Shown here: piece after piece, positions 3,334 to 61,524 of the stretch
Layout of the letters: each line of letters opens with the position of its first letter
Position numbering within the stretch: the first letter of the stretch is position 1
From: Cymbomonas tetramitiformis
Taxonomy: Eukaryota; Chlorophyta; Pyramimonadophyceae; Pyramimonadales; Pyramimonadaceae
Reading direction: 5' to 3'
Assembly (NCBI GenBank): GCA_001247695.2
Contig: LGRX02035510.1
Location: 43,673-107,672 of the forward strand
Length of the DNA: 64,000 bases
Made by a program: the position numbers and the translations under genes
The notes under the pieces: generated by a model
Told to the model about the DNA's origin: nothing
The model's database searches: none
What the model saw: only the letters and a program-made list of their open reading frames with translations

Positions 3334-3338
3334 TAGGC
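3334..3338. repeat. Target-site duplication TAGGC of the Copia element (left copy)
   Basis: TAGGC immediately precedes the 5' LTR and recurs at 9765-9769 immediately after the 3' LTR. A 5-bp duplication is the normal footprint of Copia integrases. Confidence 0.88.
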
Positions 3339-3744
3339 TAGGAAAACTGTAGACTCTGAGACAGTGTTAAAGACAGAGAGCTCAAAAGTACAAATTCAAT
3401 GACAGTATGACTGTATGACAGTATGACTGTATGACAGTATGACAGAGTACAGTACTGTGTGTAAAGGTGAACAGAACAATGATGACAATGAGATTACAAG
3501 AGACAGAAGATCAATTCAAAAGTATAAAGTATCTGTCACAGAACACAAGAGTACTAGTACGAGTATAGAAGTAGCTATGACTGAGTAACAGTGAGCACTT
3601 GAACAGTGCTATGTGATATAAGCACTGTGTGTAACGAACAAACACTCTTATCAGTTTAAATCAATCAACAGTGTGTGTGTGTATGAGTGTGTGTTCGTAC
3701 ACTTTCTACTAGATATATGAAGTTAGTAGAAGTTGATTATCCTA
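3339..3744 (+). repeat. 5' LTR of the Copia element
   Basis: Identical over 406 bp to 9359-9764. It contains a run of GACAGTATGACTGTAT-type repeats near 3418-3462 and a GT run near 3671-3680. The boundary is fixed by the target duplication on the left and by the primer-binding site starting at 3745. Confidence 0.93.
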
Positions 3745-3755
3745 GGTTATGGGCC
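3745..3755 (+). promoter_or_regulatory. Primer-binding site complementary to the anticodon loop of initiator tRNA-Met
   Basis: GGTTATGGGCC starts at the first base after the 5' LTR. Its complement GGCCCAUAACC carries the CAU anticodon within the CCCAUAA loop of eukaryotic initiator tRNA. Drosophila copia is primed by an internal half-molecule of this tRNA at an almost identical site, so the same unusual priming is inferred here. Confidence 0.75.
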
Positions 3756-3788
3756 TGATATAGGTCTGATAGTGTAGATACAGCCGTC

Positions 3789-6700
3789 ATGGCGGACGCG
3801 GGGAAAGGAAAGTATCCTACGCGGGAATCGCAGCTTCAGGAATTGGTAGAGCAGCAGGCTAGTTTTATGAAATCTATGGAAGCAACAATTCAGGCTTTGA
3901 TTTCAGAGAAGAAGGAGCCTGGGAAATCGACAGAGAATGAAGAAGCTGCGTCGGGTGCAATGAGCACTGCCAACGCACAGAAGACAGTTCAGTGCGTTGT
4001 GAAGTTGTTGGGTACGACGAAGTACACGGGTACAGAGAGGAATCAGTATGAGTCCTGGGTACAATTTAAGACACAGTTAGAGTCAGCAGTCACGTTTTAT
4101 CCTGAGCTGCTGGAACTAGTGTGCGACTATCAAGTGTCAGATATTGCAGATATCAAAGGACTGGACTTGTATATGCCTAAATCGAGAGGATATGGCAACA
4201 CGGCTGCGAAGGAGAAGTCGTCATCATGGGCAGAAGACAAGCCTGCGTCACAGGCAGAGGACGAGGACGTTTTTGAAGAGGTCTTTGACGACAGCGGCAG
4301 TTATATTACTGTGCCTGGTTCTGCGAGTATGGCCAGTACAATTTTGTCAGCTATTTTGAAGCAGGTGACAGCTGGGGACGCCTTTGACGTTGTACGACGC
4401 TGTGGTAATGACGGGTTGAAGGCGTTCAGGAAGCTGAAGTGCAAAGTGGAGCCGCAGCTGTTTGGTCAACTCGCGGGCTCAATGAAGAAGCTATGCAAGC
4501 TGTCGGTGAACGCCAATGAGGACCCGGTGAAGCAGTTGGGATATTTTGGTGACGTTATGTGCTCAGTGGCCAACTATGGGGGTGCGAAGCTTGACCCGAC
4601 AACTGTCGAGGTGCTGGTGACTGCTCTGGCTGTTGCGGCTATGCCTATAGAGTATTCGCAGGTGGTTGCGGATATCAGTAAGGAACGACGTCCTTCGTTT
4701 GATATGCTTATGCAGAGGTCTGAGTATTTTTATGTGAATGTCGTACAGCAATCGGCGGTTCATTCATCGAGTATTGTGGGAGCTACTGTGGACGAGGAGA
4801 CTGTTGCAGTGGCAAGAGCACTGGTTGCGGACAGAAGGAGGCAGAGCGAGGAGAAGAGGTTCAATGACGGGAAGAAATTGATATGTCCTACGTGCTCTGG
4901 TGTACACTCTGCAGAGAAGTGCTGGATAAGCAACCCGGCAGGTATGGAGGAGTTCATCAAGCTCAATCCTGCTAAGGAGAAAGGGGTTCGTGAGAACTAT
5001 GCGCGGAGGCTGAAGAAAATCGCGGCGAAGAAGTCACCTGACGCGGTAGCAGCGACGGTGGAGAAACCTTCATCGAGTTCAGCGAGGTCGCGTCGTACGG
5101 AAGTTTCTGCGGAGGAGCTGTGGAGCTTGGAGAATCATGAAGAAGTTCATGTTGCCTGTCCGGTGGTCGCTACAGTGGCAAACCAGAAGGTAGTATACAC
5201 TGGTGAGGTATTGGAGGACACCTGGGTGTACGGTGTGTACGACAGAGACAAGGAGAATGACGCACTGGTGCAGAATGAGTACTATGAGGACTCGGTGCAT
5301 GAGGAAGACCTGTGTGCAGCAACTGTGGTGGACTCTGAGAGAGAGCTGTATTTTGATAGCATGGCCACGAGGTCGATTTTTAATGACCTGTCTATGTTTG
5401 AGGGCGCTCAGGTGAACGCGTCATCAGCGGTGGCGTTCAAGGTCATGGCTGGAGAGGTGACGACGTCTCGTGGGGGAGGCCGTGGGTATATTACCTTGTG
5501 GAATCGGGTGACGAAGAAGGCTGACGTGCTGCTGGTGGAGGCGCAGTATGTGCCTGAGTCCCCCTTCAATCTGGTATCCGCGGTGAGCCTGGAGGACAAG
5601 TACGGTCTGTATGCACAGTTTGGGGACCGTGTACTGAAGGACAAGAAGAATCTGTGCGAGTACGACGTCTGCAGGAAGGGGAACGTGTATGTTTTACCTG
5701 AGGTTGTCGTACAGGAGGCTGCGCTGCCGGGGGTGGAGTGCGGCAAGAAGAAGAGTAGTCCGGTGAGGGACAAATGCAACTGGAAGTTCACCGAGTTCCA
5801 GAGGTGGAACATTGAGAAGGGGCCCTTTCATCTGGATATGTGTGCTGACGAGCACAATCGGCAGGTGAGCGAGTACTACTCGTTGGTGAACTCGGTGTTT
5901 CTTCATTGTCTGACGGGACGAAGCTTCTGGGGTAATCCACCGTACGACGATATGTTCATTGAGAGACTGCTGACCAAGATACTCATGGACTTTCCTAAGG
6001 ACCCCGTGAACACGAAGTTTATGCTTGTGGTGCCGTACAAGCCAAATGCTGCGTGGTGGAGTCTGACGACGAAGTTTGAGGAGTTGCATGTATACTCGAA
6101 GGGCAGCGTGATATTCTCAGCGAGAACGGATCAGTGCTATAACGTGTCTGAGCTGGAGGAGTCCGAGCCTGGTCGTGTGTTTATCCAGGGGACTCCGTGG
6201 CCAGTGGTTGTGCTGTATCTTGATCAGTATGTGGTCCCGAGGGTGGACGTGAAGGTTGTTGCACATCTCAGACTTGGTCATGCTTGTGACAAGTATGTGG
6301 AGGTCATGGACCTTCAGGGGTTGGACCTTGGGGTCAACTCTGAGGAATTGAGGAACAGCAATGTACTGAGCTGTTCGGTGAACTGTATGGCGTGCCAGGT
6401 GGCGGCGCCGAAGAGGCCATCACAGACGACAGATAGGGGAAGGGTCCCGAAGTCTGTACGGAAGGTGGTGGACAAGAGGGAGGTGTCTGTCAAGATGGGG
6501 CAGCTGACGTTCACTGACCATGGTGGACCATTCGTGGCATCTACAAAAGGTTATCGTGGGTACACTATCCACGTGGATGACTTTTCAGACGTGTGTCACT
6601 TCTATGTATGGAGACAAAAGCTGGAGTATGTCGACGCTCTGGAGGACTATCGCAAAATGGTGAGGGCGACTGGGCGAGTGTTCCTTCAGGAGGAGACTCG

Positions 6701-9347
6701 TGTTGAGCAGGTGGTGTACGACTTGGACGTGCTGGTGTTGCACTCCGACAATGACTCTACTATCGTGTCTGGAAAGACCAAGAAGTACTGTGAGGACAAT
6801 GCTATTGTGCAGAGGACGACGTCACCGTACTTGCACGAGAACAATGCCAGGGCGGAGACCATGAACAAGTTTCTGCAGACGAAGGCGAGGGCTATGTTGG
6901 CGACTGCTGGTTTGCCCGCGACTATGTGGCCTTTGGCAATGAGGCACGCTGTGTACCTTATCAATCGACTTTGCAAGGCTGGGCTGGGTATGCAGTCCAG
7001 CTTGCAGGTGCTGAACCAGAAGTACGATCTGTCTGTGCTACGAGTGTTTGGTTGTCGTGCGTATGCTTTCATCGACGCGAGCCTGCGTTCCAAACTGGCT
7101 GATCGGGCTACTCCCTTGATCTACGTGGGACACGAAGAGCGATCTACGGCTTATCTGCTATACAGCCAGGACAAGGAGAAGGTGGTCAGAAGTGGTATGG
7201 TCCGGTTTGACGAGCGCGTCGATCTGTATGGAAAGCTGGTGATGTCTTGGGATCCCTCTATGCTGACACCGTTGAGATCGTTGTACGACTGCGAGGCTCT
7301 GGATGGAAACTTCGTTACAGCGTTTGGGGGTACAGCGACAGTGATACTGGAACTGCGTGCCTATGTGGAGCCAAAGGGTGATGAGTTCACTGGTGTAGTG
7401 AAGTTGAAAAGTGCTGGTGGAAGAACATTTTGGACACCGGTGAGTGTGTTTCTGGAAGCACGGGTGGAGCATCTTGAGCTGCTGTTTGAGTTTCGTGTGA
7501 AGTTGTCAGTGAACTCATTCTATCCTTTGTTTGAGAAGGTGGTATTGCAGCAGTCAGGAGGAGGTGAATGGGAGGCAGCAGTGGTGTGTGCTACGGCACG
7601 AGAGGATCACGTGTTGCCGTATCAGGTGATACTGGAACGTCATGCTGGAGTGAGTGGCTCGGCAGTTGATGTGTGTGAGGCTCGAGTGAGGTTTGAGAAT
7701 CGTCATGTTGCTTTGGCAGCTCGTGAGGAGAAATTGACGGGGTTGCCAGTTGGAGTGACTGAGCCGAAAGGATGGGTTCAGTTGTTGAAGGGACCTGACG
7801 CAGTGCAGTGGCAGGAGTCAGATCACAAGGAGGAGTGTGCTCTTATTGACGTGAAGAAGGCAATCGAGCCGGTGGAGTCGGTACCGGTTGGTGAGAAGGT
7901 AATGCGCATGACAGCTGTGTACAAAGTGAAGCTGGACTCTGCTGGAGAGGTGACTGAGAGGAAGACCAGATGGGTGGTGTGTGGTAATGGTCAGCAGCAT
8001 GGGGTGCACTATGAGGACGTGTATGCCCCGTGTACACAGTTGTCAACGTTGAGAATTCTTATTCAGCTCAGTCTGGTGTTGGGACTATTGGTGTTTGCTC
8101 TGGACGTCATCACCTGCTTTTTGAACGGCGAGCTGGACGTGGATACTCCTATGTATGTCAGCTGGCCTAATGCACGGACAGTACGGGGAGTACTGTATGG
8201 AATTTTGCAGAAGAGTGTGTACGGCTTGAAACAGGCACCACGCATTTGGTACAAGACGAGCAAGAACTTTCTGCTGGCTTATGACAGCAGGCTCCGGGTG
8301 TCCAACATTGACCCGTGTCTCTTTTACATCTGGCAGCATGGTACACTGGTGGTGTTTGTGTACGTACATGTGGACGACTACACTGTGTTCACTTCATCAG
8401 TGGAGTGGAAGGTGGAATTCTTCAGAGCATTTAGTGAGAAGTATCCGAGTAAGGACAAGGGCCCGTTGGTGGAGTTGCTGGGCATGAGTATGACTTTCAG
8501 TGACTATGGTCTTGTCAGGGAGTGTCAAATCAGTCAGGTTGGGCTGATACAGCGTATGCTGGAGAGGTATTCTATGCAGGACTGCAATCCGTGTTTGACA
8601 CCTATGGAGCCCAGACTGTCTTTGTTGCCTGTGGACTCGGAGGAGAAGTTGGAGAAGCTTCCTTATATCAACCTGGTGATGGAACTGATGTGGCTGGCAC
8701 GTTGCTCACGGCCTGATATTCTGACAGCAGTCTGTTATTTGGCCAGGTTCTCTCACTGCTATGGGCAAGAGCATTGGCAGCATTTGAAACGTGTGCTGAG
8801 ATATTTGAAAGGAACTGTTCATGTTTGCTTGACTTTGCAGTGCAGTTCGCCAGCTTCACTGACTGCTGAGTTGATAGTGACAGCTTATACAGACGCGGAC
8901 CATGCTGCAGATAAAGTGACCAGGCGCTCTGTTACAGGTTCATTGGTGCGTCTGAATGGGAGCACTGTCATGTATTCGTCAAAGTTGCAGAAGACAGTTG
9001 CAGTGAGCACAGCAGAGGCAGAATTGATAGCGCTGTCAGAATGTGCACGGGACGTAGAGTATGTTGTCAATCTGTTGGCAGAATTTTCGCCTGTCAAGCA
9101 ACCTGTCACAATTCATGGAGATAATCATGCTTCGGTGGCACAGGCAGAGAATGTTCTGAACAATGCAGCGACACGTCACGTGGCAGTGAGAAATCGATAT
9201 GTGGCAAAGTTGGTAGAGCTGGGCAGAGTTGTTATTGCAAAAGTGCCTACGAAGGAGAATTTGGCAGACTTCTTTACCAAAAGTCTAGCTTTGGACCGTT
9301 TTCAGATACTCAGTGCTGTGGTATTGAGATATTTTCGAAGAGCATGA
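3789..9347 (+). CDS. Copia Gag-Pol polyprotein with embedded phage-type N6-adenine methyltransferase domain
   Basis: This 1852-aa polyprotein should make capsid, protease, integrase, reverse transcriptase and RNase H. Gag is about residues 60-350, with a CCHC knuckle at C366, C369, H373, C378. The protease motif is D523-S-M-A. Residues 664-812 resemble the phage Dam family: FHLDMCAD at 680-687, catalytic GNPPY at 715-719, then VYSKGSVIFSA and WPVVVLYLD. The pre-integrase HHCC is H826, H831, C866, C869. Integrase shows D910, D987 and E1023, exact D-35-E spacing. Reverse transcriptase has D1439 and HVDD at 1527-1530, where YVDD is usual. RNase H has D1702, E1745 and D1778. The first ATG follows the primer site by 33 bp. 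There is no stop or frameshift, so Gag:Pol ratio control is not evident. Confidence 0.95.
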   Translation: MADAGKGKYPTRESQLQELVEQQASFMKSMEATIQALISEKKEPGKSTENEEAASGAMSTANAQKTVQCVVKLLGTTKYTGTERNQYESWVQFKTQLESAVTFYPELLELVCDYQVSDIADIKGLDLYMPKSRGYGNTAAKEKSSSWAEDKPASQAEDEDVFEEVFDDSGSYITVPGSASMASTILSAILKQVTAGDAFDVVRRCGNDGLKAFRKLKCKVEPQLFGQLAGSMKKLCKLSVNANEDPVKQLGYFGDVMCSVANYGGAKLDPTTVEVLVTALAVAAMPIEYSQVVADISKERRPSFDMLMQRSEYFYVNVVQQSAVHSSSIVGATVDEETVAVARALVADRRRQSEEKRFNDGKKLICPTCSGVHSAEKCWISNPAGMEEFIKLNPAKEKGVRENYARRLKKIAAKKSPDAVAATVEKPSSSSARSRRTEVSAEELWSLENHEEVHVACPVVATVANQKVVYTGEVLEDTWVYGVYDRDKENDALVQNEYYEDSVHEEDLCAATVVDSERELYFDSMATRSIFNDLSMFEGAQVNASSAVAFKVMAGEVTTSRGGGRGYITLWNRVTKKADVLLVEAQYVPESPFNLVSAVSLEDKYGLYAQFGDRVLKDKKNLCEYDVCRKGNVYVLPEVVVQEAALPGVECGKKKSSPVRDKCNWKFTEFQRWNIEKGPFHLDMCADEHNRQVSEYYSLVNSVFLHCLTGRSFWGNPPYDDMFIERLLTKILMDFPKDPVNTKFMLVVPYKPNAAWWSLTTKFEELHVYSKGSVIFSARTDQCYNVSELEESEPGRVFIQGTPWPVVVLYLDQYVVPRVDVKVVAHLRLGHACDKYVEVMDLQGLDLGVNSEELRNSNVLSCSVNCMACQVAAPKRPSQTTDRGRVPKSVRKVVDKREVSVKMGQLTFTDHGGPFVASTKGYRGYTIHVDDFSDVCHFYVWRQKLEYVDALEDYRKMVRATGRVFLQEETRVEQVVYDLDVLVLHSDNDSTIVSGKTKKYCEDNAIVQRTTSPYLHENNARAETMNKFLQTKARAMLATAGLPATMWPLAMRHAVYLINRLCKAGLGMQSSLQVLNQKYDLSVLRVFGCRAYAFIDASLRSKLADRATPLIYVGHEERSTAYLLYSQDKEKVVRSGMVRFDERVDLYGKLVMSWDPSMLTPLRSLYDCEALDGNFVTAFGGTATVILELRAYVEPKGDEFTGVVKLKSAGGRTFWTPVSVFLEARVEHLELLFEFRVKLSVNSFYPLFEKVVLQQSGGGEWEAAVVCATAREDHVLPYQVILERHAGVSGSAVDVCEARVRFENRHVALAAREEKLTGLPVGVTEPKGWVQLLKGPDAVQWQESDHKEECALIDVKKAIEPVESVPVGEKVMRMTAVYKVKLDSAGEVTERKTRWVVCGNGQQHGVHYEDVYAPCTQLSTLRILIQLSLVLGLLVFALDVITCFLNGELDVDTPMYVSWPNARTVRGVLYGILQKSVYGLKQAPRIWYKTSKNFLLAYDSRLRVSNIDPCLFYIWQHGTLVVFVYVHVDDYTVFTSSVEWKVEFFRAFSEKYPSKDKGPLVELLGMSMTFSDYGLVRECQISQVGLIQRMLERYSMQDCNPCLTPMEPRLSLLPVDSEEKLEKLPYINLVMELMWLARCSRPDILTAVCYLARFSHCYGQEHWQHLKRVLRYLKGTVHVCLTLQCSSPASLTAELIVTAYTDADHAADKVTRRSVTGSLVRLNGSTVMYSSKLQKTVAVSTAEAELIALSECARDVEYVVNLLAEFSPVKQPVTIHGDNHASVAQAENVLNNAATRHVAVRNRYVAKLVELGRVVIAKVPTKENLADFFTKSLALDRFQILSAVVLRYFRRA

Positions 9348-9358
9348 GTAAGGAGGAG
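9348..9358 (+). promoter_or_regulatory. Polypurine tract for plus-strand priming
   Basis: The purine-rich run AAGGAGGAG (9350-9358) lies between the gag-pol stop codon and the first base of the 3' LTR, the expected position for a plus-strand primer. Confidence 0.8.
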
Positions 9359-9764
9359 TAGGAAAACTGTAGACTCTGAGACAGTGTTAAAGACAGAGAG
9401 CTCAAAAGTACAAATTCAATGACAGTATGACTGTATGACAGTATGACTGTATGACAGTATGACAGAGTACAGTACTGTGTGTAAAGGTGAACAGAACAAT
9501 GATGACAATGAGATTACAAGAGACAGAAGATCAATTCAAAAGTATAAAGTATCTGTCACAGAACACAAGAGTACTAGTACGAGTATAGAAGTAGCTATGA
9601 CTGAGTAACAGTGAGCACTTGAACAGTGCTATGTGATATAAGCACTGTGTGTAACGAACAAACACTCTTATCAGTTTAAATCAATCAACAGTGTGTGTGT
9701 GTATGAGTGTGTGTTCGTACACTTTCTACTAGATATATGAAGTTAGTAGAAGTTGATTATCCTA
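9359..9764 (+). repeat. 3' LTR of the Copia element
   Basis: Identical to the 5' LTR over its full length and followed by the second TAGGC copy at 9765-9769. Confidence 0.93.
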
Positions 9765-9769
9765 TAGGC

Positions 9770-35423: not shown

Positions 35424-38400
35424 ATGCCTCGTGGTAAAGGTGCCAAGCGCAGAAAGACCAGTGACGCCGACGTGGTTCTGCACGCGCAGGGTCAAGGCCC
35501 TGTGAAACGAACTCAGAAAAACCCTTACGACCTCACGGGCAGCGACGCCACTGTCTTCTCCGTCCGTGAGATAAAAGCGGAAGCAGTAAGGAAAGGTAAA
35601 CCTGTGTGGCTCATAGGTTGGGAGGGTTTCACTGATAACGAGGACACATGGAAGCCCATCGAGAATCTCGCCGGACACGAACAGGAGATAGCAGCTTTCC
35701 GCAAGGACAAGGAAGAACGATCCCGGGTTGATGCGCAGAATAATAGGGCCAACAAAAAACGGAAGACCCCTTCAGAACAACAAAGTGCTTCAGGTGCATC
35801 TGGAAGTGCGTGTGTTACACATTTCGCCCGTTGTGCTTCTTCGTTCGTTCGTTCTTCGTTGTGTTTTCTTGCGTTTGAACTTCGCTGTCTTCGGTCCACG
35901 TTCTCACTGCATTCCGGTTTTTCGTTGTGTATACAAATTCACAGATGAAGATGCCAGCACACTGGACGAGAACTGGGTGGAGGGCAAGGGGGGGAAACGC
36001 AAAGCAGCGTGTTGGGCATGCTACAAAGTTCGTCTGTGTCCTGAGCAGCCCGAGAAGGTCCTCGCGCTGTGCTGCAAAGTATGTGGACCGGATTCTTCGC
36101 CTACGTGGAGTGGGAACACTTCCAACCTACGCTCTCATCTTGCGCACATACACAAGGACTTGTATTGCAAGATGGTCGAGGCTGAGTCTGCCGACTCTGC
36201 AACTACTGAGGAGACTCGGGGCGTCAACGCCGCCAAAGTTGGGACCATAGAGGCGATGTTGCCACCTATTTCCGACGAAAAACGTGACGAGTTGCATAAG
36301 AAGGTGCCTCCCCCTCCCCCCCCCACCTCCTTCCTTCACTCTCTATAGATTTTCTTATGTCGGTATTTTCTCATGACCTGTGCGTGGCAGTGAATATGAT
36401 TGAAAATTGAAAATGGACGTGCGCCTCTCAAATACTATGGCATTGTGTCGCATATGCTTGAATGTAGGTTGACCACCTGAGTCGAGTGATACGCTTGGTT
36501 GGTGGCTCCCCGCCTCTGGCCGTGCTTGGGCGAAGAGCCCTTTTTCATTGATGACTATGACTGACTATGATTTTATCATAGTCAACATAGCGAAGACATT
36601 ATGTTGGTATTCGCTCCTAGAATATTTATTTCGGTATTGATGTTTGTTTGTGTATGCAGTTTGCCCTCTGGATCGTTCGGAATAAAAGGCCTCTCGGCAT
36701 CGGAGAATCTGACCGCGAGCTTCGTGATATCTTCGAGTTCATCTTCCATGGTAGCTATGTCCCTCCCACCTACAAGTTGGTCACGCAGTACATTTTGGAG
36801 TTGTCCGTTGAGCGGGGAAGAACAAGGTGAAGTCCTATCTTGCGGCACTTTTGGCGGAGGGTATCATGCCCTCCATCGCTGGTGATTTGTGGTCCGAAGG
36901 TGGCATTGCCATCTTCGGAATCCTGGTGTATTGGATCGACAAGGGCATGGTGCTTCACGAGAAGTTGCTTTCCGCGGTACCTTTTAGCGATGTTCGTCAC
37001 ACGGGCTTGGAAATCGAGCGTTCCACGAAGGAAAGCTTATCAGACATGGGGGTTGGTGAGTACACCCTGGATCAGCTTGGCAGTGCTGATAGCGGTGAAA
37101 CTTCCATCACAGTGGACACTGTGAAGGACTTTGTTCACTCTACCACATCGGATAGTGCTTCCAACATGATTTCGGGTTGGGGGTGCTTCGACGGACATGA
37201 GTGCAACTGTCACCTGCTTGCCCTCTGCGTTCTTGTGTTTTTGACATCGGACGGTGTGAAGGAGGCGTTCACGAAGCTGCGTGGTATGACCACGCACTTC
37301 AACCATTCAGTGATCGGCCGAAAGCTACTGCATGATTGCCAAGACAAGTACGGACTTTCACGAACTTCCCCACCTCAAGATAACGCCACACGCAGTGGGT
37401 GGAAGGGAGCGCGTAATCAGGCCAAGTGGTTCGTAGAGAATCAGGTGTGCACCCATCACAACTCCGGGATTTTGTGTGCCTTGTATTTTTGTTGTGTGCC
37501 TTGTATACATATATATATATATATACTGCTGATTGAGACGAATAATTGTATGTGTTGCTAGAAGAGTGTTTTGATAGTGTGCGTGTCTTACATAGGAAGC
37601 GGTTCAACTTTACGATGTGGAGCACCCCAAATAGGCGGCGACATCGGTGGATAATCCGGACGGAAGTCGTTACCGCGACCATAAGATGGACCTGTATGAA
37701 TGGGACATAGTCAAAGAGTCCTTGTACATATTGGACCTGACTACCAAGGCAGTGGACCTCCGCTTCTTCGCCAACTTCGGGTTTTGTTTTGCCGGTGGTG
37801 GGGGGTTTGATCCACAAGCTCAAGGCCGAGAGCAAAGTGAAGTACAATAAGGTAGTCAGGAAAATCGAGAACATAAGTGTGCAAGAGGCAAGACAAAACC
37901 TGCTTGAGGCCATTGAACAAAGGTGCGCACTCCGATAAATTGTCGTTTTTGTAGCTATTCACGCGGTGCATAAACCTGGTGTTGGGCAGAACGGCAGATA
38001 TATTTGTGTGATTAAATTTGGTGTTGCAATTGTGATGAGTGCCAGGTTCTTCAAGGCTCTCCTAGCTTGCAAGCTGGAAGATTTTGCTGTCTCCACCTTC
38101 CTCGATCCGCGGTACAAAAACTTGGAGTTCAAAATGTTGGAGGGCTGGCGGTCAGGTACTTTGACCAGATCTCACATCATTCACTTGGCACGCTCTGCGT
38201 ACGAGGCTGACTGGATGCCTAAAGAGTCTGACACCCCTCTTGCGGTCCCTTCGCCAACCCTTGAGCATATTGAGCAGAAGAGCAACCTAGTTAGCTTTTT
38301 AGAAGATAGTGATGACGATGAGGACAATCTTGTTTCATCAGCATCCGCCGCGCCTTCCACTAAAGTTGAAGATGAATTCAAGAAGTACTTGAGCCTTCCT

Positions 38401-38622
38401 GCTTGTGATGGGAACTTAGATATCTTGGAGTGGTGGCGAGGGAACTCCACTGAGCTGCCGAACATGGTGCGCATGGCGAGGCAGTTCCTTGCGGCACCTG
38501 CCAGCACTGCAGGCGTGGAGAGAACATTTAGCGCCTGCGGGCAGATGCACTCAGATCTGCGTAAGTCAGTGAAGGAAGGGACTCTTCAGCATTCTCTTAT
38601 GGCATCGATCAACACTAAGTAA
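35424..38622 (+). pseudogene. hAT transposase fused to N-terminal chromodomain and BED zinc finger
   Basis: Exons are 35424-35805, 35945-36303, 36660-37444, 37596-37922 and 38046-38622, in phase at the junctions I could check. Exon 1 encodes a basic head and a chromodomain (VREIKAEAVRKGKPVWLIGW, then FTDNEDTWKPIENL). Exon 2 has a BED finger: CCKVCG followed by LRSHLAHIHKD. Exons 3-4 hold the RNase H-like core: AGDLW, SDSASNM, CHLLAL. Exon 5 ends with the hAT dimerisation region: DILEWWRGN, then VERTFSACG. Damage: a one-base loss near 36818, TAG at 37633, and a frameshift near 37790. Transposase is therefore probably inactive unless these are assembly errors. Chromodomains bind methylated histone tails, so the fusion could direct insertion to marked chromatin. 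Confidence 0.85.
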
Positions 38623-45214: not shown

Positions 45215-47740
45215 CACAGCCTGTGGCGGCAGGTGGTGGTTGGGGAATGAAGGCGGGGGAGAAGGCAGCTGCGGAGAAGGCGGCCGCGGAGAAGGCGGCT
45301 GCAGAGAAGGCGGCTGCGGAGAGGGCGGCCGCAGAAAGGGCAGCTGCGGAGAGGGCGGCTGCGGAGAAGGCGGCAGCCGAGAGGGCGGCGCTGGCATCAG
45401 CGACGGCAGCTCAGCGTGCAGCGGCGGAGAAGGCGGCAGCAGAGAAGGCGGCAGCAGAGAAGGCGGCAGCAGAGAAGGCGGAAGCCGAGAGGGTGGCGCT
45501 GGCAGCAGCGACGGCAGCTCAGCGTGCAGCGGCGGAGAAGGCCCTGGCGGCGCAGAAGGCGGCAGAGAAAGCGGCGGCCCAAAAAGCGGCGGCGGAGAGA
45601 GCGGCGGCAGCAAAAGCCGCAGCGGACAAAGCGTCGGCGGAGCGGAAACGTCTGGCAGACGCGAAGAAGACTGGCGCTGCGGAGAGCGCGCCACATAAAT
45701 CCCTGAACAAGCCGTTCATTGGTGCTCTTGGGATCAACGTGGTGTTGCTGGGATGCCTCGCCAAGGCCATGTTCATGAGTAACAGCCAGGTATGGTGCCG
45801 GTGCCTGCCTGGCTTTTGTCCGCCCGAGCCGAGTGAAGCTGAGCATGCCATCTGTGTCACTTCTTGTTTTGTCCAAGCGGCCCTTGTAAGACGACCTGAT
45901 GGCCACTGCACTGTCTACCCACTCGCGCTGACGCGGCAGGGCGGCTGCACAACACCAATCCTAGCTTCCTGTGCCGCAGCGGTTGCAGATCCGTCAGTGT
46001 GCTGAGGAGCTCGCACTTCTCGGGAGAAAAGAGGATTTGGCAGGAGGTCACCACCATCTCTTACCTTATCACTACCCCCTGCTGCATCCCCGTGGACCTG
46101 TGAATTGAGATCAGCTTGGGGTGCTGACCGGTGTTTAAGGAGGGGATTCGTATAGGATTACAGCTGCGAGGGTGGAGCGCGCATTGCGGAGCTCGAGGGT
46201 CAGCTGGCAGCCCTGTCAGGCTCCGAGCAAGAGGTGGTGCAGAAGCTGGCGCTTACTCTGCAGGCGGTCGACTCTGATAGGCTAGCGCATACCGAGCGCC
46301 AGGAGGAGCTACTCTCGTGCATGAAGAAACTGGCAGAAGTGTCTACCCATGACACGGATGCCGCCCAGCTCGAGGGAGCCGAGGTGTGAGCTCGCTTGCT
46401 CCCGCCTCAGCACCAACTGTTGGTGCTCAGGGCTCGATTCGGCAAGTATCAGACCGTGGATCCCTGCATCTCACGGCCATAGGCTGCCGCTCCCCACCCA
46501 CTGGGGTGTCAATCCAGTATCACGTGGTTCGCTTTTTGTAGGGTTTGTGCAGACTTGTTGCCTATCCCGCAGATGCTTCGGGTTGTTCCCTAAGTGCAGC
46601 TTTTGCTTCTTATGTGTTAAACATGGAGAAATGTCCCTCGAGGATCTTCAGCTTGCGCAAGGATGCCGTTCCTGTGTGCCCTGTAACTGCGGCGTGAAGT
46701 GCTAACGCGTAGCATTGACCCTCCGGTAGCAGTGTCAAAGGCGCATATACGGTGTGCTGTTTCTTCAGGGCGTGGTTCGAGTCCTTGTCATTCGTGTCGG
46801 CCCCTCCCAGGCGTGCGTGTCCTTCCTCCGCCTCCGCTTGGGGCGCCTTGCGCATGCCCTGCGGCTTGGTGGGGGCTGGAGTAGGGAGTGCGCGGCAGGC
46901 CAGGCGGCCATTGGCCATTCGGTAATAGCGCCGTTGTAAAGCGTGGATGGGATGGAGATCGATGGGCAGGCTTGGTGGGCATGGCTTGAATCCATGCCCG
47001 TTCTGAAGATCGGAGACCACCTCGTCCCATGCCAGACAGCGGCTATTGTTGTTGGCAGCATCTTCTCCCTCGTCGCCCTGCGAATGCTCGTGGCATTCTT
47101 CAGGGCCCTCAACCGCGTAAGCGCCACCCTGCACGGGAATTCCGTGGAGCCCCTTTACATCCTTTTCCAAAATTTGCGTGCTGCAGTGTTATTTGCCACG
47201 TGGAGTATTTCCCGCCCTGGGTGCTCGCCCAACTATGTTGAAGAGCGCAGCCTCTGTCTAGCTCGCCACGTGCGAGAGTGCGTTCCTTCACGGGTCCCCA
47301 GGTGTACGCGAGCACGTGCCGCGGCACTCGCTGGGTACAGGGTTAGGAATGACCTTATGTTGTGGCACAGTCAGCATCTATTGCCGGGCATCCTGGCTCC
47401 TGGGCTCTGCGCCTCGGCGTTTTCCCCGGCATCTCGTCACAAATTAAATCTGTGTGCGCAAACGGTTGTCGCCCTGCCTCCGCTTGCCGCTTGCTGGATG
47501 TCACTGCGGCGTTTCTTTAAACGGCAGTGCGTGTCCGTTGGGCAGGGATCCACTGCTGCGAGGAAAGAGCAAGTAATGACCGCGCGTATTGAGGATCTGG
47601 AGACTGAGCTGAACGAGCTGAGGGAAGCCCAAGGGGTATCGAAGAAGGTGTCGGTGCTGCGCTACGAGCTCGGCCTCCTCCAGTCCCAGCAGCAGCAGCA
47701 GCAGAAGCAGCAGGAAGATCCGGTCAGACGATGCTGCTAA
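45215..47740 (+). CDS. C-terminal exons: Ala/Glu/Lys helix, membrane segments and coiled coils
   Basis: Exons are about 45215-45789, about 46166-46387, about 46970-47116 and 47546-47740. The first encodes about 140 residues of AEKAA-type repeats, predicted as a long single helix or coiled coil, then a hydrophobic segment ([20 protein letters not shown]) and a GTATGG donor. The second is a coiled coil ([18 protein letters not shown]). The third is a membrane helix ([20 protein letters not shown]) before a GTAAGC donor. The last joins in phase 0: a coiled coil ([16 protein letters not shown]), a Gln run, and a terminal RRCC before TAA. With the upstream C2 domain this suggests a membrane-tethered C2 protein, but the two halves could also be separate genes. 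Confidence 0.55.
45250..45640. repeat. 15-bp GCGGAGAAGGCGGCT repeats coding AEKAA
   Basis: More than 15 imperfect copies in direct orientation, in frame with the helix exon. The other five frames read as Gly-, Arg- or Pro-rich shadows. Confidence 0.8.
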
Positions 47741-53433: not shown

Positions 53434-53668
53434 TCACGGGGAGCCCAATCTTGCCACCCCCACTGTAAGGGGGGGGGCACAGTGGGTCTCCTGTCTGTCA
53501 CCCCTCAGCCCGATGTGTCACCAGAGTCCGTTGTCACGGTGTGCTATAAAACACTCACCTAAGTATTTTATATCATCTTAGTATCCGAGAACACCTGCCC
53601 CTGCGAGACTGTTCTGCTCACACGCATTCGACATATATATCTACATATATATATCTCACTTCTTGTCA
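53434..53668 (+). repeat. 5' LTR of the gag-only element
   Basis: Starts TCACGGGGAGCC and ends CTTGTCA; contains TATAAAAC near 53545 that could serve as a TATA box. Nearly identical to 55728-55961. Confidence 0.88.
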
Positions 53669-53679
53669 GGTTATCGGCC
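53669..53679 (+). promoter_or_regulatory. Probable primer-binding site GGTTATCGGCC
   Basis: Directly follows the 5' LTR. The same GGTTATCGG follows the LTR of the inverted relative (61270-61262 on the minus strand), and it resembles the GGTTATGGGCC site of the intact Copia element, differing at one base. Confidence 0.6.
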
Positions 53680-53924
53680 ACCACTTGTGGGTGTTCGTTG
53701 ATTACTTTTGATCCTTGGAGGGCACGTCGAAACTCCTTGAAAAACGCCGCACGTCGCCGGCAGCCGCCGCACGTCGCCGACAGCAACTACATCTCGACCT
53801 CGGCCACCGTTGAAGATCGCGGCCGCGTCAAAATTTTATCACCAAACCGTTGACAATTTGGGCTACAGTTTTGCCCCGTTGTTTTTACGCAGATTCCAAC
53901 ATTCCCGATTACGTGCTTCCAGCT

Positions 53925-55509
53925 ATGGTGTCAAACCGCCGAAGCCCTGGACCTGTGGTGGAGTCCATTCGCTCCGCGCGTGCCGCCGCGGCTGCATCTG
54001 GCTCACCTGCGGGTTCTACACTCCCTGGCTCTGCGGCCCCTTCTCCGCAGAGGGGTTCCCGCACACCGGGACAAAATCCCGATCCGGTGGTGCGCATGTC
54101 CGCGCTGATCAGCAAGCCGACATTCATCTCGCTGGCTGCCACCTCCGCCGATTTTCATCGTGACGCCTCGGTCTGGGAGTCCACCCCAGTCCGGGCGTCC
54201 CAACAGTATGAGTACTCCGAGAGGATGGACTACGCCTTCACTTACGGTGAAGAGCTCGTGAAGGTCCTCCGCTCCCATGGCTTCAAGCCGCAGAAGGGGT
54301 ACACGCTCGACGGCCCGGACTCCGAGACCGACTTCGCCGTCCTTCTTGGTAATCTTCGCCACGTATTGTCCCCCATCTCCCACTACGAGTACGACAAGCT
54401 CTTCGACCTCGAGCACGAGTACCTCGAGTACCACTGGTCCCTGAACGAGCTCATCTTCATCATCCTCAAGGGCGTCCTCAACGGTACGGCTCTGGCACTC
54501 TACCAGGAGTCCGCTCGAGTCCACCCACGCGATGGACGTTGCGCCTTACAGCGCCTGCGCTACCATGTCGAGGCCTCCACGGACCCCGACACTTTCCGCT
54601 TCTGGACGAAGCTGCGGGATACGAAGATTGACGAGACCGCCGACCCCGCCCCGCAGCTCACGGTTCTCCGCGTCCTGGGCGACAAACATCAACGCCTTCA
54701 TCCCGGCTATGACGACGCTGGACGTGTACAAGATCTTCAGCACGTTCTCAGCCGGTCAGCGGCGAGCTCCCCACACGTGTCCCCACTTTATCTGGTGGTG
54801 CTACGTGAGCTCGCCGCTGGCCAAAGGTTTACATTCTCCACCCTCGCCCTCCGCATTGCCACGGTATGGCAGACCGAGGGGCACCTCTCCCGCCTAGCCA
54901 CTCCTCCATCCTCGGGCGCTGGTGGTGGCAAGGCACGGGCGGACGGAGCCGGTGGTGCTACGTTCAACTCCGTACGCACACGCGGCGCCGTCGTCAAGCC
55001 CGTCGGAGATTGGAAGCCGGCCCAGAACCCCCGCGTCCCTCACTTGATGTGGGAAGGGGTCGGCTATCCTTGCATCTCGTGCTTCCGTATGTGGGGCGTC
55101 ACCGATGGGCACACCGACACAGACAGAGGGAGTGTGCCCCTACGCGTGCGCCGCGTCCTTTGCACCTTCCAGGGGGCCGCCTAATGCTCCGAAGGCGCCG
55201 AAGCGCCCTACCGTCGCTGCCTGGGCTCAGCCCGCCGGTGGTGTGCCTCCTGCCGCGGCCCCTGGTCCCCCGGCGAGCCGTGGCTCACCTTCATTGCAGC
55301 ATGCGGCTGTGGACGGCGATGACGGCGATGGCGACGATGGCGCGGCCGCATTCCCTTTCCGCCCTTTGCTCGATCGTGACGAGCCGGGGCCCATGCCCGA
55401 CACCTCCGTGGACGACGGTGACGCCGATTGGCCGGCTCTCCGCTCCGTTCCGTGGATCCCGCCGTTCCAGGGTGCATCGTCATCCCGCTCGGCGGCAAAG
55501 CAAGATTAA
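53925..55509 (+). pseudogene. Gag-like protein of the gag-only element, one frameshift
   Basis: The first ATG is at 53925, although homology to the 61-kb copy begins about 10 codons earlier (NIPDYVLPAM versus NISDYVIPAM). The frame runs to 55184. The continuation lies in the +1 frame to 55509, because of one extra base near 55122 within a zinc-knuckle-like CISCFRMWGVTDGH...C. The N-terminal ~60 residues are Ser/Pro/Ala-rich. The core (YAFTYGEELVKVLRSHGFKP, DGRCALQRLRYHVE) is helical and acidic, matching the inverted copy closely. The tail is Pro-rich and acidic. Function as capsid is inferred from position within LTRs, helical content and the Cys/His knuckle. Confidence 0.7.
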
Positions 55510-55727
55510 GTAGCAACAGCACAGTTCGGCAAAGACCCTTCTCCATGCCTGCACGGTTTGTGATTGACTCTCGAGGGAACCGAGCTCTTTAGATTTACTT
55601 AGCAACAGACTTTTGGACATCTTGGGATGGCACATGCCGGACTGCTCGGGCCAGTTTGGCTCCTAGACCCTGCAGTGCCCCTGCCTCTTTGCCTGGTGAC
55701 ACCTCAACCCCACGGGGTGAGGTGGTG

Positions 55728-55961
55728 TCACGGGGAGCCCAATCTTGCCACCCCCACTGTAAGGGGGGGGCACAGTGGGTCTCCTGTCTGTCACCCCTCA
55801 GCCCGATGTGTCACCAGTGTCCGCTGTCACGGTGTGCTATAAAACACTCACCTAAGTATTTTATATCATCTTAGTATCCGAGAATACCTGCCCCTGCGAG
55901 ACTGTTCTGCTCACACGCATTCGACATATATATCTACATATATATATCTCACTTCTTGTCA
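55728..55961 (+). repeat. 3' LTR of the gag-only element
   Basis: Matches 53434-53668 and is followed by the second GTAT at 55962-55965. Confidence 0.88.
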
Positions 55962-55965
55962 GTAT

Positions 55966-59548: not shown

Positions 59549-61524
59549 CAGAATGTAGGGACCGGCTGGGGACCACCACCGCCTCCGACGTCCACGGAGC
59601 AATCGTCGGCGGGGAGGGCGGTGCCACTCAACGCCGGGGTGGGCGCCGAAAACGCGAAAAGCGGACGGTCATGGCAGAGGCACCCTGCGGCGAGGCATCG
59701 GTCTGCGGAGGGGGCTCGAGCTCCTGGAGGGAGTGAGCCCGCGGAGTGGCAGCAGCCGACGGTGGCCATGCGGTGAGGGGCGGTGGAGCACTTGGGGGAG
59801 GGGGGGCATTAGGCGGAGCCCGCCCCGGCACGAACGCCGAGGTGCACGAGTAGATGCAAATGCCGTCGTTGTCCATGTGTCCTGTGGTGACACCCCAGAG
59901 ACGGAAGCAGGTAATGCACGGCATGCCCGTGCCCTCCCACACGAGATAGCGGCCGCCAGCCTCCTGCCGCTTCCACTCACCAACGGGTGGGGCGAACCGC
60001 CGCTTGCCAAAGGCCATGGCCGCAACGGCAGGCGGTTTGCCGCCACCAACTCGCCCGCCACCACCAGACGTCGGAGGGGTCGGCACGGTGGGACGGGCCA
60101 AGGGGGCCTCGTCCCGGAACACCTTACCGAGGCGAAGGGCGAGGGAGGCGCAGGTGAAGGCCGCCCGTCGTTGATGTCGCGGATCACCACCAGGTACAGC
60201 GGGGTGACGTACGGGGAGCCGGCCGCGGAAGAGCGGAGGACGGTGTGGAGGTCCGCCACCATGTCGCGGTCGCCATAGCCAGAGTGCAGCTTGCGGTGCT
60301 TGTCCGCAAGTGTGCGGAAAACCGCAAGCTGCGGTGCGGGGTCGACGGTCTCGTCGATGACAACAGCACGAAGGCGAACCCAGAAGCGATGTGCATCAGG
60401 GTCACCAATCCCCTCCACGTGGTACCGAAGACGCTGCAAGGCGCAGCGTCCATCGTGGGGGTGTACTCGAACGGACTCGTCGTACAGGGAGAGGGCAGTG
60501 CCGCGAAGGATCGTTGGGAGAACGACGTAGAGGAGCTCGTTCAGGGCTAGGTGATACTCGTCGTACTCGAAGTCGAGGTCGAGGAGCTTGGTGAATTCGT
60601 CACGGGCGATGGGGCCGAAGACGTGGGACATGTTGGCCAGCAGAACGGTAAAGTCCGACTCAGCCTCGGGTCCCTCCAGGGTGAGCCCGACGGTGGACTT
60701 GAAGCCATGTCCCCGCAAGAGCTTAGCCAACTCTTCGCCGTAGGCGAATGCGTAGTCCAATTTGTCGGCGAACTCAGCACGTTGGGAGGCACGAACGGGG
60801 GTGGAGACCCACACAGAGGCGTCAGCGTGGAACTCCGCGGACGTGGCTGCCCGAGATGCAGGTGTAGGGCGCCGACGTAGTGAGGACATCCGCACAATAG
60901 GGTCCGACTGACCGTCCCTAGCGGGACTATCAGGCGGAGTAGTGCCAGGGGAATTCCCCCCAGCACCCCGGGATGCACGAAGGCGGGCGCCGAGCGAAGG
61001 GCGGTCGGCTGACATTGCTGGAATGACGTAGTCCGAAATGTTGATGAAACGCGAAGTGTACGCGCAGTCGGACGAAACCAAGGGGCGATGGGCTCCTTGT
61101 CAGATGTGTTGTGCCGATGGGGCACGAGGAGGTCAGATGTGATAAAGAGCGATGGGCTCAGTCAGATACGTTCAGCGATGCGCTGCGGAATACCGCGAAT
61201 GCCGCGGGATCAAAGAAAAAAGGTGGGAGCTAGCGAGCGGACACGGACCGGTGGTAAAGGCCCGATAACCTCACGGAGACGGTGAAATAAATATATATGA
61301 AGGTAGTGATATATATATTTATTTGTCTACTGAAATCACGGAAGCTGGACAGTGTCACAGCAGGATTGAGCACACATTCGAACTAAGATGAGATAATAAA
61401 AGTGAGACATAGTTTTATTGTCTCAGCTCACGGCAAGCAGGCTGACCTGGAACCTCAGATTGAGGGGTGACAGAGAGGGCAGAGGCACCCCCAGTGTAGG
61501 GGGTCAAAGTCTCTGTCTCCATGA
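59549..61524 (-). mobile_element. Inverted, 3'-truncated relative of the gag-only LTR element
   Basis: A single LTR-like end lies at 61271-61524 (minus strand). It starts TCATGGAGACAG and ends CTCCGTGA, then GGTTATCGGG follows as primer site. It shares blocks with the 53-kb LTR (ACTG..GGGGGTGCC, CTGTCACCCCTCA, ATCTCATCTTAG). A Gag-like gene follows. No second LTR is found: sequence passes straight into the GAAGAC satellite. Confidence 0.65.
59570..61015 (-). pseudogene. Gag-like protein of the inverted element, one frameshift
   Basis: Reads from ATG 61015 through a core nearly parallel to the 53.9-kb protein: YAFAYGEELAKLLRGHGFK, LYDESVRVHPHDGRCALQRL, LYLVVIRDINDGR. A one-base loss near 60163 shifts the frame; the continuation (PAVAAMAFGKRRFAPPVGEW, then CITCFRLWGVTTGHMDNDGIC) runs to about 59570 and into the satellite. 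The knuckle C-x2-C...H...C is intact here whereas it is split in the 53.9-kb copy, and vice versa for the first break, so the ancestral gene was continuous. Confidence 0.7.

Follow-up and report, generated by a model that had tools for sequence, protein, structure and literature searches.

A predicted Dam-type adenine methyltransferase domain within the Pol of a Copia retrotransposon from the green alga Cymbomonas

Can a DNA methyltransferase be a working part of a Copia retrotransposon? This question was raised by a 64,000 nt stretch of a Cymbomonas tetramitiformis contig (the window), in which the initial annotation had placed a Dam-like N6-adenine methyltransferase domain between the protease and the pre-integrase zinc finger of a Copia polyprotein.

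The Copia element and its surroundings

The element at window positions 3334-9769 is an intact Ty1/Copia retrotransposon and a recent insertion (Table 1). It had been described as intact with identical LTRs, and this held: the two 406 bp LTRs do not differ, TAGGC is found at both flanks, and the ORF is continuous. The LTRs end in TAGGA...TCCTA, not TG...CA, and these short inverted ends and the 5 bp target-site duplication are as in Ty1/Copia elements, for which the duplication is 4-6 bp. The Pol order of protease, integrase, reverse transcriptase (RT) and RNase H, with RVT_2, also is that of Ty1/Copia according to Pfam and, for RNase H, motifs. No Pfam match for RNase H was reported in the window ORF, and we take the region carrying the YTDAD and STAEAE motifs to belong to this family. 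In place of the D(S/T)G of the Ty1/Copia aspartic protease, the window element has DSM; we place it in Copia despite this triplet because of its gene order and RVT_2. DSM also is present in 12 relatives from the family of the window element in which the protease pattern was found, and the other Cymbomonas families have DSG where the pattern was found.

Pfam matches in the integrase region span residues 927-1014 (rve, below the cut-off) and 1076-1144 (SH3). DIRS1-like elements are defined by a tyrosine recombinase and a methyltransferase after RNase H; no recombinase family was matched by the window element up to E 10, rve/SH3 and RVT_2 are present, and the Dam domain comes before the integrase (Pfam). 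The probable primer-binding site presumably is complementary to the anticodon arm of the initiator tRNA-Met, and half-tRNA priming is known from copia itself. The best database match for residues 640-850 was CYMTET_2561, a C. tetramitiformis protein of 1853 aa that is identical over these residues and 98.9% identical to the window ORF over the whole length (20 mismatches, one gap).

Table 1. Features of the Copia element, with positions in the window
Feature	Position	Strand	Basis
5´ target-site duplication, TAGGC	3334..3338	.	Flank comparison
5´ LTR, 406 bp, TAGGA...TCCTA	3339..3744	+	Repeat comparison
Probable primer-binding site GGTTATGGGCC, downstream of 5´ LTR	3745..3755	+	Sequence reading
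gag-pol ORF, 1852 aa, single uninterrupted frame	3789..9347	+	ORF list; Pfam domains
gag zinc knuckle CPTCSGVHSAEKC	4884..4922	+	By eye
Protease / Pol_BBD region, residues 521-604	5349..5600	+	Pol_BBD 17.3 bits, under cut-off 27
Protease catalytic triplet, DSM instead of DSG	5355-5363	+	Motif pattern
Dam-like N6-adenine methyltransferase domain (predicted), residues about 656-815	5754..6233	+	Profiles, alignment, predicted fold
Cofactor-site motif FHLDMCADEHN (putative)	5826..5858	+	Alignment
Catalytic motif IV NPPY (putative); Asn invariant in 16-sequence alignment	5934..5945	+	Alignment
HHCC pre-integrase zinc finger (HLRLGH ... CSVNCMAC)	6264..6395	+	Motif; PF13976 subthreshold in relatives
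DDE integrase core and SH3-like domain	6429..7220	+	rve 21.1 bits (cut-off 32.6); SH3_retrovirus 63 bits
Reverse transcriptase RVT_2, residues 1364-1607	7878..8609	+	Pfam, 111.5 bits
RNase H region, YTDAD and STAEAE motifs	8706..9308	+	Motifs
Polypurine tract AAGGAGGAG, adjoins 3´ LTR	9350..9358	+	Sequence
3´ LTR, 406 bp, identical to 5´ LTR	9359..9764	+	Repeat comparison
3´ target-site duplication, TAGGC	9765..9769	.	Flank comparison

Elsewhere in the window, positions 35424-38622 possibly correspond to a chromodomain-bearing hAT transposon, as judged from an ORF with a chromodomain (33.7 bits) that lies upstream of ORFs with a hAT dimerization region (57.7 bits) at their end. At 53470-55962, two 200 bp direct repeats that are 99% identical flank an ORF (53850-55184) with 55.8% identity over 317 aa to an ORF on the opposite strand (59669-61081); neither ORF has a Pfam match, and both look gag-like by eye. 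A 15 bp tandem array at 45221-45664 encodes, on the + strand, a repeat rich in alanine and lysine.

Identity and ancestry of the domain

Profiles, alignment and a predicted fold together show that residues about 656-815 are a putative Dam-type (PF05869) N6-adenine methyltransferase domain, homologous to phage-type Dam. PF05869 was matched above its gathering cut-off of 28.1 bits by the whole polyprotein (30.6 bits) and by pieces of 201 aa (35.5 bits) and 177 aa (35.9 bits), and phrog_111 'DNA methyltransferase' matched the domain with 4e-06. TIGR01712 (phage_N6A_met) gave 26.7 bits against an equivalog cut-off of 97.05, and the window domain is not filed as such an equivalog. Against a profile of 16 viral-contig Dams, the domain scored 37.7 bits; the best of 1000 shuffles of the domain, 710 of which gave any score, reached 5.4 bits, ruling out chance similarity. 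The PF05869 match stops near profile position 120 of 169, and the alignment with the viral-contig Dams extends the likeness across the 'GRxxF' strand, which reads KGSVIFS here, and on through WPVVVLY, the last strand, in agreement with the annotated likeness across the full length. The assigned limits of 5778-6224 (residues 664-812) also were correct, with conserved sequence (RDK..W) beginning a few residues before 664, from about 5754. The NPP[YF] and LDxxA...N motifs both are present and the phage-like LD-CAD-x2-N set is kept; we assume from the Dam family that FHLDMCADEHN contributes to the cofactor site and that NPPY is catalytic. No separate target-recognition domain was visible by eye.

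Among solved structures, the predicted fold of the domain (pLDDT 86) is best matched by PCIF1, an N6-adenosine methyltransferase, followed by Erm38 and E. coli Dam, consistent with a class I methyltransferase fold near the N6-adenine enzymes, with a viral-contig Dam predicted as a control. A PDB sequence search with the alignment of 16 retroelement domains (A1) returned three chance-level matches up to E 10, none of them a methyltransferase of the Dam family. The profile search and the structure prediction that the initial annotation had proposed as checks thus both favor its reading, and cut-off, alignment, fold and spacing bear out the domain's identity and its place between the protease and the zinc finger.

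Alignment of the region to ordinary Copia linker had been named as one outcome that would overturn this identification. For comparison, we used an unplanned sample of 36 ordinary Copia loci (L021-L056, many of them partial and read in the forward frames) from a scan of prokaryote assemblies, where they probably represent eukaryotic contamination. None of the 316 forward-frame ORFs of at least 80 aa in these loci matched either of two profiles of the retroelement domain at E ≤ 10. The same profiles matched all 54 Copia proteins from the homolog searches described below, partly by construction, as the domains of 10 of the 54 were in the profile. The spacing from the protease triad to HHCC was 127-140 aa in nine of the 10 ordinary loci where the whole stretch lies within one ORF and 182 aa in the other, whereas it was 294-302 aa in 28 and 208-267 aa in five of the 33 Dam-bearing proteins (among 55 Copia proteins, P0001 included) in which it could be measured. 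Ordinary Copia ORFs are therefore about 165 aa shorter in this stretch, which is the size of the domain; spacing and profile control together rule out an ordinary linker.

Two homolog searches, seeded on the Dam domain and hence blind to Dam-less Copia elements of the same alga, yielded 55 different proteins (46 from Cymbomonas, six from EukProt and the three archive proteins P0054-P0056). We refer to the window element as P0001; P0002-P0055 are 54 Copia proteins and P0056 is a Ty3/Gypsy protein. A Copia-type Pfam domain is listed in 52 of the 54, and the two others (P0010 and P0029) have the Copia protease pattern. Between P0001 and P0021, identity is 42% in the domain, 42% in RT, 41% in the integrase core, 32% in the protease and 18% in gag. 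Within a set of 23 Copia proteins (P0001 and 22 of the 54), Dam distances correlated with RT distances (r = 0.97, median ratio 1.04; 153 pairs among the 18 proteins with a long enough RT span) and with integrase distances (r = 0.97, ratio 1.06; the 21 proteins with a long enough integrase span). An RT tree was built with 43 tips, namely P0001, 13 of the 54 Dam-bearing proteins and the 29 longer ORFs of the ordinary loci (15 shorter ones were omitted). The 14 selected Dam-bearing elements group in it as a single clade, with support of 0.98.

These comparisons show a domain that, as far as sequence divergence can tell, changes at the rate of RT and integrase and far more slowly than gag, and that appears to be kept about as faithfully as the core replication enzymes. 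The most parsimonious reading has the domain acquired once, by the ancestor of this Copia clade, and retained ever since at core-enzyme constraint. The P0001-P0021 identities, the correlation of Dam and RT distances and the RT clade rule out a recent one-off capture. Of the two options left by the annotation, that the domain is maintained or was acquired recently, the first is borne out by RT-paced divergence of a domain that is old in its Copia clade and the second is not; only the insertion, with its identical LTRs, is young. The proposed search for related Copia elements accordingly was productive, with 54 Copia proteins carrying the domain and those tested falling in one RT clade.

Beyond these proteins, domain alignments A1 and A2 (the Gypsy-domain alignment) led to seven and 13 viral-contig loci, respectively. 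No whole-element relatives were found in viral contigs for P0001, P0021 or A3, and no match in prokaryote genomes searched with A2 was confirmed. A homolog search from P0056 returned four proteins, query included.

Possible functions of the domain

Taken as a whole, the best explanation has, in our judgment, about even chances: the window element would be an autonomous member of Ty1/Copia in the green alga Cymbomonas, and its Pol would carry the Dam-type domain as a core module. The likeliest role, judging from sequence, would be N6-methylation of element cDNA. As part of Pol, the domain would reach the virus-like particle (VLP), either be released or stay beside integrase (and RT), bind S-adenosylmethionine and methylate adenines in newly made element cDNA. 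More speculatively, the incoming copy might carry 6mA, which marks transcriptionally permissive chromatin in those protists that employ it, and the mark might protect the copy or permit its expression after integration. In AMT1 protists, 6mA is described as a mark of permissive chromatin that lies downstream of start sites (PMC12695648), which suggests as a benefit that a new copy would already be marked active; the main text of that article does not name Cymbomonas. The same methylation of VLP cDNA has been argued by de Mendoza et al. for cytosine DNMTs in DIRS elements (PMC5890265). We are rather doubtful of the fullest form of the proposal, in which adenine methylation would be central to the life cycle of this Copia clade and would define the lineage, with a 'retro-Dam' that derives from phage-type Dam and was passed between DIRS, Gypsy and Copia writing 6mA on cDNA so that the copy arrives with the host's active-chromatin mark.

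The domain might instead be a non-catalytic or weakly catalytic nucleic acid-binding module, chromodomain-like, that serves integrase or the particle in targeting or assembly and has a partly vestigial pocket, a reading that we regard as rather unlikely. A census of the catalytic motif bears on it. Among the 53 of the 54 Copia proteins that cover the motif (the gene model of P0020 begins inside it), the motif IV Asn is kept in 52 and the canonical NPP[YF] in 47, and the alignment of 15 Copia and one Gypsy sequences has invariant N36 and N62. The window element itself retains both the LD-CAD-x2-N and NPPY sets, and these counts speak for catalysis. The main evidence for the binding module is in the exceptions, NMPY in P0016 and P0017 and NVPY in P0018, proteins that otherwise preserve the domain (65-70% identity to P0001); NPEF in P0055 (32% identity) and the change of the motif I D to E in other Cymbomonas families point the same way. 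In all four proteins identity in the rest of the domain is similar to or above that in RT. The remaining exceptions are NPLY in P0007 and IPPY in P0010. P0016-P0018, perhaps with P0020, make up a subclade that belongs to the family of the window element. Since these proteins depart as a group, either NMPY is functional or certain elements persist with an impaired enzyme, and some elements may be able to do without catalysis.

Even with a catalytic domain, RNA rather than DNA could be the substrate. An N6-adenine methyltransferase acting on the genomic RNA or on a cap-proximal adenosine, as PCIF1 does, could affect translation, packaging or innate recognition; we consider this unlikely. The nearest solved fold is that of PCIF1/CAPAM, but the viral-contig Dam control has the same top match, and for this reason we set it aside as evidence for an RNA substrate. 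A further point for RNA comes from sequence, as the PCIF1 profile was matched at E ≤ 1 by 10 of the 16 retroelement domains in A1 (best 5.8e-06) and by two of the 10 viral-contig Dams in alignment A4, which holds 10 of 20 domains (best 0.015). The PF12237 (PCIF1) cut-off of 31.1 bits was not reached by the retroelement proteins for which scores were shown (12-26 bits). This likeness of the retroelement domains is a possible lead on the origin of PCIF1.

That the domain is a neutral passenger (a piece of a phage-type gene that was caught in Pol and is not under selection) is very improbable and largely refuted: gene capture by retroelements is known and the insertion is young, but the domain has the same position in 33 of 33 proteins with measurable spacing, keeps pace with RT and integrase (r = 0.97 with RT) far below the rate of gag, and is crossed by long open frames in the distant archive elements P0054 and P0055. 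Misread homology, whether to ordinary linker or through an assembly or annotation artifact, has next to no probability; we found nothing in its favor, and it is refuted by the shorter, matchless ordinary ORFs, by the shuffle control, by a continuous ORF between identical LTRs with a target-site duplication, and by dozens of proteins on many contigs, as well as in archives beyond the Cymbomonas assembly.

Comparison with known methyltransferases and retroelements

The preferred reading, a Dam-type enzyme acting within a retroelement, can be set beside several known systems. Phage and prophage N6-adenine methyltransferases (PF05869, TIGR01712) share LDxCAx(2-3)N, GxxxxxNPPY and a closing FPSxVV-type strand with the window domain and differ in being mostly stand-alone, short viral proteins. 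PCIF1/CAPAM, a cap-adenosine N6-methyltransferase with what we take to be an NPPF-type motif, is a much larger RNA enzyme.

Other retroelements carry the domain elsewhere in Pol. The archive proteins P0056 and P0057 are Ty3/Gypsy pols in which the PF05869 domain, 35% identical to the Copia domain over 138 columns of a profile alignment, lies before the protease of a Gypsy-order pol. P0058 and P0059, which by eye resemble DIRS-type pols in their order, have Dam at the C-terminal end; RVT_1 is matched weakly in P0059, and a recombinase was seen in neither. P0059 also has an N-terminal NADAR domain (104.3 bits), with Dam at 26.4 bits, just under the cut-off. By hhalign, Copia and Gypsy domains match at 3.4e-29, Gypsy and DIRS at 1.9e-20, Copia and DIRS at 5.6e-15, Copia and five viral-contig Dams at 2.7e-12 and, weakly, DIRS and viral at 2.1e-4. 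A joint tree of 133 columns comprised 11 Copia, two Gypsy, two DIRS-like and 16 of 20 viral-contig domains (L002, L003, L014 and L015 left out), and all 16 viral-contig Dams fell on one side with support of 1.0. An RDxxDW start, EYPAGxxxFSAP (YSKGSVIFSA in the window element) and WPVVV are found in many retroelement domains and are absent from viral Dams. We favor one retro-Dam module in three retroelement orders at three positions, a reading kept tentative by the 133 columns and by the two rows each for DIRS and Gypsy; one methyltransferase family at three different positions is what these data suggest.

In fungal DIRS elements, the methyltransferase family is named as PF05869 (PMC3783388), and the function of the DIRS domain has been called unknown (PMC3266345). 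The likeness to DIRS1-like elements, with an RT-RH-MT pol, is a Dam-type methyltransferase within a retroelement pol, homologous between the window element and P0058/P0059. The contrast that the initial annotation drew with DIRS is upheld, in that the same Pfam family follows RNase H there (PMC3783388, PMC3266345) and DIRS has a tyrosine recombinase, whereas the window element has LTRs, a target-site duplication and a DDE integrase and carries the domain after its protease and ahead of the integrase.

Algal retrotransposons have taken up methyltransferases before, as DNA methyltransferases are described in the coding regions of SymbioDIRS/LINE-Dnmt and KnitGypsy-Dnmt3 (de Mendoza et al., 2018, PMC5890265), with purifying selection reported for the KnitGypsy DNMT and abundant Copia elements of Symbiodinium without any DNMT (PMC5890265). 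These enzymes differ from the window domain in being cytosine-5 DNMTs, which are structurally unrelated. In the account of Morozov et al. (PMC6338049), DIRS elements have both Dam and cytosine enzymes and Gypsy elements have the latter; the word Copia is absent from its main text. The two Cymbomonas genome papers (PMC10675990, PMC5741210) do not contain 'copia', nor does the 2023 paper (PMC10675990) contain 'methyltransferase'; the 2015 paper lists a cytosine DNA methyltransferase among the proteins of very high-copy scaffolds (PMC5741210). Searches of the open-licence PMC literature brought up no Copia element with an adenine methyltransferase. Retroelements already known to contain a DNA methyltransferase are DIRS elements for the adenine type and LINE, DIRS and Gypsy elements for the cytosine type; a Copia clade with a predicted adenine enzyme that co-evolves with RT has ordinary LTRs, VLP cDNA and an integrase and so offers a system in which one can ask whether a transposon writes its own epigenetic mark before integration.
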